Shown piece by piece: positions 60,187 through 63,059 of a stretch of 64,000 nucleotides of DNA; the stretch's first letter is position 1, and each line of letters starts with the position of its first letter. The position numbers and the translations under genes were made by a program. This stretch comes from Bacteroidia bacterium (GTDB lineage: Bacteria; Bacteroidota; Bacteroidia; B-17B0; Aurantibacillaceae): contig JAGNIU010000001.1 in assembly GCA_018000995.1 (NCBI GenBank), positions 248,001-312,000 of the forward strand, written 5' to 3'. Below the pieces are notes generated by a model, which saw nothing but the letters and a program-made list of their open reading frames with translations, was not told the origin of the DNA and did not search any database.

Positions 60187-60261
60187 TATAGCTTGATGGA
60201 GCCCCTCAAAATTTATTCTAATTGATTTTCAACATGTTAAGTATATTTTCAATACATTAGA

Positions 60262-60292
60262 TTCTTATGTATCCACTTCTTATGTATCTTTG
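60262..60292 (+). promoter_or_regulatory. Promoter with 12-bp direct repeat upstream of the PadR gene
   Basis: TTCTTATGTATC occurs at 60262-60273 and again at 60277-60288 (15-bp step). The second copy overlaps the exact -7 box TATCTTTG at 60285-60292. An upstream GTATATTTTCAATAC word (60241-60255) is an imperfect inverted repeat. These are candidate operators for autoregulation. Confidence 0.55.
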
Positions 60293-60316: not shown

Positions 60317-60649
60317 ATGTATTCATCAGAATTAATAAAAGGGACATTAAAGACAATAGTTTTAAAACTATTAGCCGATAACAAAAGAATGTACGGGTAC
60401 GAAATTACTCAGCGAGTAAAAGACCTTACCGGAAATAAAATTCAAATTACGGAAGGTGCACTCTATCCTACTCTTCATGCTTTAGAAGCTGACGGCATTT
60501 TAATTACCGAAACCGAATTCATCGGTAAGCGTGTACGAAAATATTATTCGTTAAGTAAAGAAGGTCAGGCTAAATCGAAAGAAAAAATTAATGAGTTTTC
60601 TGACTTCATGAACACAATGAAATTTTTACTGGAAATAAAACCGGCATAA
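60317..60649 (+). CDS. PadR-family transcriptional regulator
   Basis: The 110-residue protein is a winged-helix repressor: KGTLKTIVLKLLADNKRMYG, EITQRVKDLT, ITEGALYPTLHALEADG (recognition helix) and KRVRKYYSLSKEGQ (wing). A short C-terminal helix for dimerisation completes the small PadR-s2-like form. The start ATG at 60317 follows the -7 box; the TTG within that box is rejected. It lies 4 bp before the first GldL/GldM-like gene, so it probably controls its own operon in response to an unknown ligand or envelope signal. Confidence 0.93.
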   Translation: MYSSELIKGTLKTIVLKLLADNKRMYGYEITQRVKDLTGNKIQITEGALYPTLHALEADGILITETEFIGKRVRKYYSLSKEGQAKSKEKINEFSDFMNTMKFLLEIKPA

Positions 60650-60653
60650 ATAA

Positions 60654-62090
60654 ATGTACTCAATCAAAGATGAACAAATAGATTTTATTCTCAACGACAT
60701 TAGACGTCGTGGCGTTGAGATGGAGGACCTGCAGTATAACCTCCTGGATCATATTTGTTGTATCGTTGAGCAAAACCTCGAGAGCGGTGGCAACTTCGAG
60801 GACTTCTATAACAAAACCATTCCCAAATTCTTTAAACACGAACTCTGGGAGATAGAAGAAGAAACCATCCTATTACTAACCTATAAAAATTATTATACTA
60901 TGAAAAAAGCTATGATATATGGAGGCGTCATCTCCCTTTCGCTAATCGCGCTAGGAACTGTCTTCAAGATTTTCCATTGGCCCGGTTCTGCAATTTCCTT
61001 ATTACTCGGGTTTTTTATTCTCTGTTTTGTGTTCTTTCCTTCTGCACTCTATTTAAATTACAGCGCTACTAAAAAAGGTATAGGCGTAAACCTATCTGCT
61101 TTTCTTGGCGGTACCATTTTAATGATTGGTATTTTATTTAAAGTGATGCATTGGCCGGGCACAGCAATGTTATTAATGGTTGGCTGGGCCATTTTGCTTG
61201 GTGTGTTTGTTCCTTTATTGCTATTTTCTAAACTCAGAGAAAATATTCCCGCTAAGGAAAAACGTATATATGTTCTCGGTGCTTTCGCATTAATTATTTT
61301 TGAATCGGCTACACTATTCAAAATGATGCACTGGCCGGGTGCAGGACCTTTACTAGTTGTTGGTTCATTTGCTTTGATTGGAGCTTTTATTCCTCTCTAC
61401 ACCAACATGAAGATTAAAACAAACGCTATGAATGCAGGCCAATTTGTGTTTGTGATTACATTATCGATGTACGCTATTGTTTTAACAACTTTACTGACCA
61501 TGAATGTTTCCGGTCCTGTGCTTGAACGTTTTTCAAGAGATGAAGCAGACAATTCGAATATTGTAAAGTACTTTGAGAAGAAAAAAGAAAGATTGTTAAG
61601 TGAGTTATCAAACGATAGTACTCAAGCTTCAAGATTAGAAAACAACAAATTGGTTAGCGAGAGTGCAACAAAAACCAGGGCGTTAATTAACTCCATACGT
61701 ATAGACTTAGTTGAACATATAGAAAATGTCAACCAAGTTAGAGCACAGGAATTAATTCTACATCCGAATTCAATTTCAAGAAAAGATAATTATGATATAG
61801 TTAATCATTATTTGCTGTCATTGGAAGAACCTAATCCGGCATCAGCTTTAAAAACAGCACTTGATGATTATAAATCAATAGTTTTGAAAGTCGCTGGTAA
61901 TAACGAGAAATTAGTAACAAAAATTAATGGCTTGTTAAACACAAACTCCGTAGGCGAAGGCGAAACTTTAAAAACGTGGGAAGAGGCTAATTTCAGAAAC
62001 AATATGTTGATTAGCACACTTTCCCGCTTAAGCGACATTGAGAAAAATATTTGTTTGATAGAAACCGAAGTATTAACTCTAAAAAACTAA
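60654..62090 (+). CDS. GldL/GldM-like fused membrane protein with three HWPG hairpins
   Basis: The 478-residue protein starts with a soluble domain of about 80 residues (YNLLDHICCIVEQNLESG). Three helical hairpins follow, each with the FKxxHWPG turn (FKIFHWPGSA about 106-115, FKVMHWPGTA about 164, FKMMHWPGAG about 224). The turn matches the GldL signature FKIMHWPGA. A further helix (ITLSMYAIVLTTLLTMNVSG) resembles the GldM N-terminal helix. A soluble part of about 190 residues ends in TWEEANFRNNMLISTLSRLS and IETEVL, resembling the GldM D1 domain. No Glu lies in the second helix of the hairpins, where GldL has one. Family calls are from memory. Confidence 0.85.
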   Translation: MYSIKDEQIDFILNDIRRRGVEMEDLQYNLLDHICCIVEQNLESGGNFEDFYNKTIPKFFKHELWEIEEETILLLTYKNYYTMKKAMIYGGVISLSLIALGTVFKIFHWPGSAISLLLGFFILCFVFFPSALYLNYSATKKGIGVNLSAFLGGTILMIGILFKVMHWPGTAMLLMVGWAILLGVFVPLLLFSKLRENIPAKEKRIYVLGAFALIIFESATLFKMMHWPGAGPLLVVGSFALIGAFIPLYTNMKIKTNAMNAGQFVFVITLSMYAIVLTTLLTMNVSGPVLERFSRDEADNSNIVKYFEKKKERLLSELSNDSTQASRLENNKLVSESATKTRALINSIRIDLVEHIENVNQVRAQELILHPNSISRKDNYDIVNHYLLSLEEPNPASALKTALDDYKSIVLKVAGNNEKLVTKINGLLNTNSVGEGETLKTWEEANFRNNMLISTLSRLSDIEKNICLIETEVLTLKN

Positions 62091-62093
62091 ATC

Positions 62094-63059
62094 ATGAAAA
62101 AATCAGTTTATATCTCCGGAATTAGTTGCGCCATTTTAATGTTGTTTGGCTGCATCTTTAAAGTCATGCACTGGCCGGGAGCCAGCGTGATGATTATTTC
62201 TTCAGTGACTTTGTTTTGCTTTTGGTTTTTACCTTCAGGCTTAATGAACAGTTACGAGTCGTTGCCACTTAAAAAAATGAAAACACTTCACGTTGTTTCT
62301 TTTATTGTGTTCGCGGTTTGTATGATGAGCGTTTTGTTCAAAGTAATGCATTGGCCGGGAGCGTCTGTGTTTTTACTTTTAGGAATATTGTTGCCCTTTA
62401 TTGTTTTTCTTCCTGTGTATTTATACCACACCAGTGAAGAAGAAAAAACAGGTAACAAAAATTTCTTTGGTCTAACTATTGGGCTTACTTTTCTTGCTGT
62501 GTTTGGTGTGTTGTTAGCTTTAAGTGTAAGTAAGCAAGTGATTCAGAGCGCTGTGATGTCGGTAACCCAAAATGAAACAACAACACGTTTTTTTATTGGT
62601 GAGCCTAAAGATTCTGAAGTTGGCAAAACAGCAACGGAGCTTTTAAATTACACAGATGAACTAAAGTGTATGGTGCTAACGGCTGATGGTGAAAACATGT
62701 GCGACGGAAATAAAACAAATGCCAATTACAGTGCTGAAAATATTTCGGGTGCAGATAACAGAGAAGTAGTGAAAAGAGTATTTTTCTCGGGAGAAGGCGA
62801 ATCAAAAGCTAAACTTCTAAAAGAAAAAGTAAATGCTTTCCGCGAAACTGTTTTATCCACTAAAAATATTAGTCCTGAATTAGCCGAGTTAACTAAAACA
62901 CTTTTCGATACAAGTGATAATGACGTGAATGGTGTTTATCAAAATGACATGGCGTGGGAACATAGAGAGTTATATAATTACTCTTTAATTTTTACGCTTG
63001 ACTTCTTATCTAAACTACAAAGCAATGTTCGTTTGGTAGAGGGTGAGGCTCTGAAGTAG
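62094..63059 (+). CDS. GldL/GldM-like fused membrane protein with two HWPG hairpins
   Basis: The 321-residue protein is a shorter relative of the preceding one, starting 4 bp after its stop. It has two hairpins with FKVMHWPGAS (about 22-31 and 82-91, a step of 60 residues). A helix like that of GldM follows (LAVFGVLLALSVSKQVIQ, compare the GldM LLALNVSKEIL type). The soluble periplasmic domain (about 155-321) ends in WEHRELYNYSLIFTLDFLSK and NVRLVEGEAL, a pattern shared with GldM. The pair may form a hetero-oligomer. There is no acidic residue in the hairpins. Followed by a strong terminator. Confidence 0.85.
   Translation: MKKSVYISGISCAILMLFGCIFKVMHWPGASVMIISSVTLFCFWFLPSGLMNSYESLPLKKMKTLHVVSFIVFAVCMMSVLFKVMHWPGASVFLLLGILLPFIVFLPVYLYHTSEEEKTGNKNFFGLTIGLTFLAVFGVLLALSVSKQVIQSAVMSVTQNETTTRFFIGEPKDSEVGKTATELLNYTDELKCMVLTADGENMCDGNKTNANYSAENISGADNREVVKRVFFSGEGESKAKLLKEKVNAFRETVLSTKNISPELAELTKTLFDTSDNDVNGVYQNDMAWEHRELYNYSLIFTLDFLSKLQSNVRLVEGEALK

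Follow-up and report, generated by a model that had tools for sequence, protein, structure and literature searches.

A probable motor-dead derivative of the GldLM complex, encoded as two fused chains beside a PadR regulator

To our knowledge, GldLM is known solely as the motor of secretion and gliding. What, then, is the role of two membrane proteins that each join GldL-type hairpins to a GldM-type helix and are encoded directly behind a PadR regulator, as we found in a 64,000-nucleotide stretch of a Bacteroidia genome (the window)? The original prediction regarded these proteins, here called A and B, as a distinct, apparently undescribed branch of the GldLM system under PadR control.

The PadR, A and B genes lie on one strand with gaps of 3–4 nt (Table 1), between a nadD-like gene on one side and an inverted metH-like gene on the other, names that we presume from inspecting the sequences by eye. 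The motif His residues fall at positions 108, 166 and 226 of A (steps of 58 and 60) and 26 and 86 of B (step of 60), in keeping with the three and two HWPG hairpins originally described. The GldM-like helices carry the motifs LLTMNVSG in A and LLALSVSK in B, and the WE...F...L.LS patterns were present in both proteins. The topology leaves the C-terminal end of A in the periplasm and the start of B in the cytoplasm. A also begins with a cytoplasmic domain of about 78–85 residues (N-domain), which the original prediction had not listed.

Table 1. Features of the PadR-A-B locus, in window coordinates.
Feature	Position	Strand	Basis
Palindromic putative PadR operator, ATACATTAGATTCTTATGTAT	60252..60272	+	Conserved type, single genome copy
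Putative Bacteroidota-type -7 box, TATCTTTG (TAnnTTTG)	60285..60292	+	Sequence
PadR-family winged-helix regulator, 110 aa	60317..60649	+	PF03551, 64.6 bits (cut-off 27)
Protein A, 478 aa: HAAS-like N-domain, three GldL hairpins, GldM helix, D1	60654..62090	+	
A N-domain, residues 1-78, cytoplasmic, three-helix, HAAS-like	60654..60887	+	Position, helices, PadR linkage
A GldL-type hairpin 1 (FKIFHWPG)	60903..61070	+	
A GldL-type hairpin 2 (FKVMHWPG)	61080..61238	+	
A GldL-type hairpin 3 (FKMMHWPG)	61251..61418	+	
A GldM-type transmembrane helix (QFVFVITLSMYAIVLTTLLTMNVS), Phe in place of GldM Arg	61434..61508	+	
A periplasmic GldM D1 domain	61509..62087	+	PF12081; Z 23.6 to 7sau_A
Protein B, 321 aa: two GldL hairpins, GldM helix, D1, no N-domain	62094..63059	+	
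B GldL-type hairpin 1 (FKVMHWPG)	62100..62261	+	
B GldL-type hairpin 2 (FKVMHWPG)	62271..62432	+	
B GldM-type transmembrane helix, Gly in place of GldM Arg	62457..62525	+	
B periplasmic GldM D1 domain	62526..63056	+	PF12081; Z 17.9 to 7sau_A

PadR passed its Pfam threshold (Table 1), as did A and B for both of their parts. GldL_N (PF22827, cut-off 24 bits) matched three stretches of A (44.8 bits) and two of B (39 bits), scores that led us to reject an unrelated hairpin family for the HWPG repeats; GldM_1st (PF12081, cut-off 25 bits) reached 46.2 bits in A and 56.1 bits in B. Neither protein attained the NCBI equivalog cut-offs for GldL (TIGR03513, 68.3; A 41.4 and B 27.5 bits) or GldM (TIGR03517, 180; A 45.9 and B 40.1 bits). 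Using phmmer, we obtained E-values of 1e-7 (A) and 2e-6 (B) against GldM 7sau_A, and a profile of B orthologs matched GldM-sized genes in other families of the class with E-values down to 1e-26, the matches covering the helix and D1 only.

An AlphaFold2 model of A, built with 26 sequences, had a mean pLDDT of 80.7 (mostly above 80 across D1) and placed three N-domain helices, six hairpin helices and one transmembrane helix in front of D1. VIA-align superposed it on Schleiferia GldM 7sau_A with a Z-score of 23.6 and an rmsd of 1.9 over 183 residues, compared with Z-scores below 10 for unrelated helical bundles; the list of structural matches was taken up by D1, so that the fold of the N-domain is not visible there. 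The B model (pLDDT 76.5) gave a Z-score of 17.9 and an rmsd of 2.5 over 160 residues. Each model contains one chain only (pTM 0.49 and 0.55), and they are uninformative on assembly. The D1 identity of A and B is supported because sequence and fold agree, and a chance or compositional match was rejected on the Pfam scores, the phmmer E-values and the two D1 fold scores. The predicted fusion of GldL and GldM parts and the multiplication of hairpins thus hold, as does the GldM-like helix with its periplasmic domain; the D1 fold, whose absence would have spoken against this reading, was recovered in both models.

The proton-carrying Glu in TM2 of GldL (E49 in F. johnsoniae) is strictly conserved and essential (PMC8986121). 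It was present in 27 of 27 GldL proteins of the family, compared with none of the 95 A/B hairpins and none of 137 hairpins from single-gene relatives of the pair. Conversely, a Pro at His+21 occurred in 91 of the 95 A/B hairpins and in none of the 27 GldL proteins. The Arg of PRQKM (PRxxM) at the cytoplasmic start of the transmembrane helix was found in all 30 GldM proteins; at this position all 19 A proteins have Phe or Tyr and all 18 B proteins Gly or Ala. Both A and B stop after D1, without the D2–D4 domains, and the GldM of the same genome has all four. Because the motor Glu, the GldM-helix Arg and D2–D4 are absent, A/B does not, as judged from sequence, work as a motor in the way known for GldLM, and these features argue against ion-driven rotation. 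The proposed branch is apparently undescribed, as predicted, but functionally not one of ion-driven motors. A complete porP-gldKLMN cluster lies elsewhere in the genome, away from PadR-A-B, which led us to reject PadR-A-B as the true T9SS locus.

We next consider the conservation of the pair. A genome scan using an A alignment, together with a family search, yielded 20 distinct A proteins (N-domain plus three hairpins) with identities down to about 30%. A two-hairpin B without N-domain directly followed A in all 19 distinct A genes with downstream DNA (including L047, in which the B frame overlaps A; the A of L060, at a contig edge, is outside the 19), and among the loci read B orthologs occurred only behind A. 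PadR was immediately upstream in 17 of 22 A entries, and in four of the five others the stretch read extended less than 100 bp upstream. The pair is conserved as a unit. It is rare: among 396 genomes of the class, a B match of full strength was found in only one apart from the window's own. As three plus two hairpins and one plus one helices are encoded in 19 of 19 pairs, hairpins and GldM helices stand at 5:2. For 92 of 95 hairpins, the nearest hairpin in another genome was the one at the same position (A1 18/18, A2 20/20, A3 19/20, B1 17/18, B2 18/19); on this sequence comparison, each of the five positions forms a separate orthologous class. A tree of D1 domains placed A in one group (support 100/99), B in another (97/97) and the two together in a single larger group (96/89), and the A and B groups branched in parallel.

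Upstream of PadR, and of a TAnnTTTG box that we take to be the −7 box, lies a palindromic putative operator that the original prediction had not listed. Its right half-site TTCTTATGTATC occurs twice, at 60262–60273 and 60277–60288, as a 15-bp tandem repeat; in relatives this half-site is mostly present once, abutting the −7 box. The pattern TACATAAG-N3-CTTATGTA was found, at 13 or more matching positions out of 16, in 76 of 89 PadR upstream regions compared with 1.1 expected in shuffles, a count that is optimistic because these sequences also supplied the consensus; the palindromy and the fixed spacing (a spacer of 3 in 75 of the 76 sites) are not forced by that origin. In the A clade, the site of most PadRs takes the form TATATAAG-N3-CTTATATA. 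The window's own genome contains one near-perfect site. Four further sites were recovered, each with 3 mismatches, against 2 sites for a reversed-pattern control, and a wider PadR regulon was rejected on these grounds; the same own-genome search found no shared operator near the gld genes. Since the palindrome is unique in the genome, regulation is probably private, and autorepression of PadR from the putative operator is likely. The conserved palindrome also lends support to the PadR control that had been predicted.

The adjacency of PadR and a membrane protein gene is reminiscent of HAAS-PadR pairs, which have been proposed as an alternative to two-component systems (PMC11237479). In Listeria, the operon of the PadR protein LltR is repressed by LltR itself, and the associated phenotype is caused by overproduction of a membrane protein of that operon (PMC6624303). 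Like these systems, of which LltR-Lmo0600 is an example, the locus has a stand-alone PadR gene adjoining the membrane protein gene, a cytoplasmic N-terminal domain with three predicted helices, and putative autoregulation. It differs in that the sensor part is GldLM-derived, in its second membrane subunit, B, and in an N-domain without detectable similarity to Pfam HAAS models: A, its relatives and the N-domain alone gave no Pfam HAAS match. A search with HAAS_TM returned no matches anywhere, controls included, and is hence uninformative. Compared with the HAAS fold, which has a kinked third helix with GxP, the N-domain shows no clear GxP. By analogy of position and its three helices, the N-domain may contact PadR. 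PadR-linked proteins with an A-type N-domain, a different C-terminal part and no hairpins were also observed (L006:3-860, L022:2794-3672 and L027:2727-3593), and in L036 a hairpin-less N-domain protein is encoded upstream of the A-B pair, beside PadR.

Fusions of this kind extend beyond the pair, with some GldL-GldM fusion in about 70 of the 396 class genomes (a hand count of matches to the B-ortholog profile). Single-gene relatives of about 380–410 aa combine an N-domain, two hairpins, a transmembrane helix and a D1-like end; PadR is upstream in 61 of 71, and 70 of the 71 have no partner hairpin gene. Longer proteins of about 714–732 aa (L161:1450-3591 and L159:1396-3591) carry two GldL hairpins, a GldM helix and D1, followed by a second transmembrane helix, a coiled coil and a C-terminal SpoIIE phosphatase; all three families exceeded their Pfam cut-offs in this fusion (domains scored in L161), in which the GldLM module would serve as the phosphatase's receptor. 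The variety of outputs, PadR or SpoIIE phosphatase, is the main reason why the GldL-GldM module suggests a signal input. A five-membered ring is not required for the module in general, because each GldM helix is accompanied by two hairpins in the single-gene relatives.

We consider it probable that A/B is a motor-dead derivative of T9SS GldLM, made of two fused chains and governed by a PadR feedback loop private to the operon. This suggests that a rotary motor has become a sensor in the membrane or a regulated device. In such a device, A and B would form a heteromer with five hairpins around two GldM helices, as in GldL5-GldM2, and the two D1 domains would pair in the periplasm. PadR would repress its own operon from the palindrome; a change in the state of the membrane or periplasm, sensed by the A:B complex, would make the A N-domain bind or release PadR, in the manner proposed for HAAS domains, so that the level of A:B would track the signal. 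A counterpoint is that, with a single operator copy, signalling leads only back to the operon; given one palindrome in the genome, the output would be the operon itself and A:B both sensor and effector. The fuller reading, which we hold tentatively and at somewhat less than even chance, is a single hetero-oligomeric 5:2 A:B complex whose five ring positions are covalently linked and differ from one another, a rotary motor frozen into a sensor or regulator, as one of a wider Bacteroidota class of GldL-GldM modules driving PadR or SpoIIE outputs.

The 5:2 count would be accidental if A and B worked apart as two homodimers (6:2 and 4:2). Side-by-side duplicated genes are common, and the two-hairpin single-gene relatives manage without a partner hairpin gene, but the strict pairing in fixed order, the parallel trees and the five distinct hairpin classes maintained across pairs down to about 30% identity make this doubtful, as does a B that lacks the N-domain and is restricted to positions behind A in the loci read. 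Alternatively, the true T9SS motor could be regulated by A and B, with the dead hairpins or D1 entering or contacting GldL/GldM and serving as a brake or decoy. Dead subunits make a natural brake, the window's own genome has the full gldKLMN set, and of 14 searched genome entries with the pair, 13 of them distinct (G217 and G493 being apparently the same), all contained the GldM D4 family and 11 had GldL above its cut-off. However, GldL-like matches occur in 82 of 87 family genomes anyway, so that co-occurrence says little; with no shared gld operator found, and a 3+2 count that would complete A:B's own ring, we regard this explanation as unlikely.

That A/B has remained an ion-driven motor, its charge having moved to another site, seems to us very improbable. 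Its overall fold is the motor fold, and an acidic residue in TM1 of A hairpin 3 (the Glu of FESATLF; A residue 217, window 61302–61304) occurs in 13 of 20 A proteins. The two closest relatives, L006 and L007, have Gly there instead, none of the 95 A/B hairpins is acidic at the motor position, nearly all central helices are without an acidic residue, and no D2–D4 is available for passing on force.

Compared with the proton-driven T9SS/gliding motor GldL/GldM (PorL/PorM), the non-motor A/B that we favour retains the PF22827 hairpins, the PF12081 helix with D1 and, summed over both chains, five hairpins for two GldM helices. It differs in its fused and multiplied chains, the Pro at His+21, its PadR operon outside the gldKLMN locus, and the loss of the long GldL tail in addition to the motor Glu, Arg and D2–D4. 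The stoichiometry of GldLM is 5:2, as in the ion-driven motors MotAB, ExbBD and TolQR (PMC9389320), with which A/B would share a five-to-two arrangement; its chains, by contrast, are covalent (3+2) and lack an ionisable residue at the conserved site. Each component is known, and it is the joining of GldLM parts with 3+2 encoding and with a PadR loop that is new, apparently an undescribed variant; a literature search found no paper relevantly linking GldL with PadR and none linking GldM with SpoIIE. If the favoured reading is true, a motor class has been recruited for signalling or regulation, keeping its parts list and 5:2 ratio and losing the proton site. Because the five positions are separately encoded, single ring positions of the 5:2 complex could be altered one by one, which is impossible with homopentameric GldL.

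Among further hairpin proteins, L160:1486-2580 (minus strand) encodes a stand-alone protein of 365 aa with two HWPG hairpins, a transmembrane helix and a GldM D1-like end, without N-domain and with no PadR adjoining in the stretch read. Other HWPG-hairpin proteins (L018:2647-3678, L025:2670-3593 and L031:2-976) have a SpoIIE-like C-terminal region, and their genes lie divergently next to operons of PadR and a single-gene hairpin protein.
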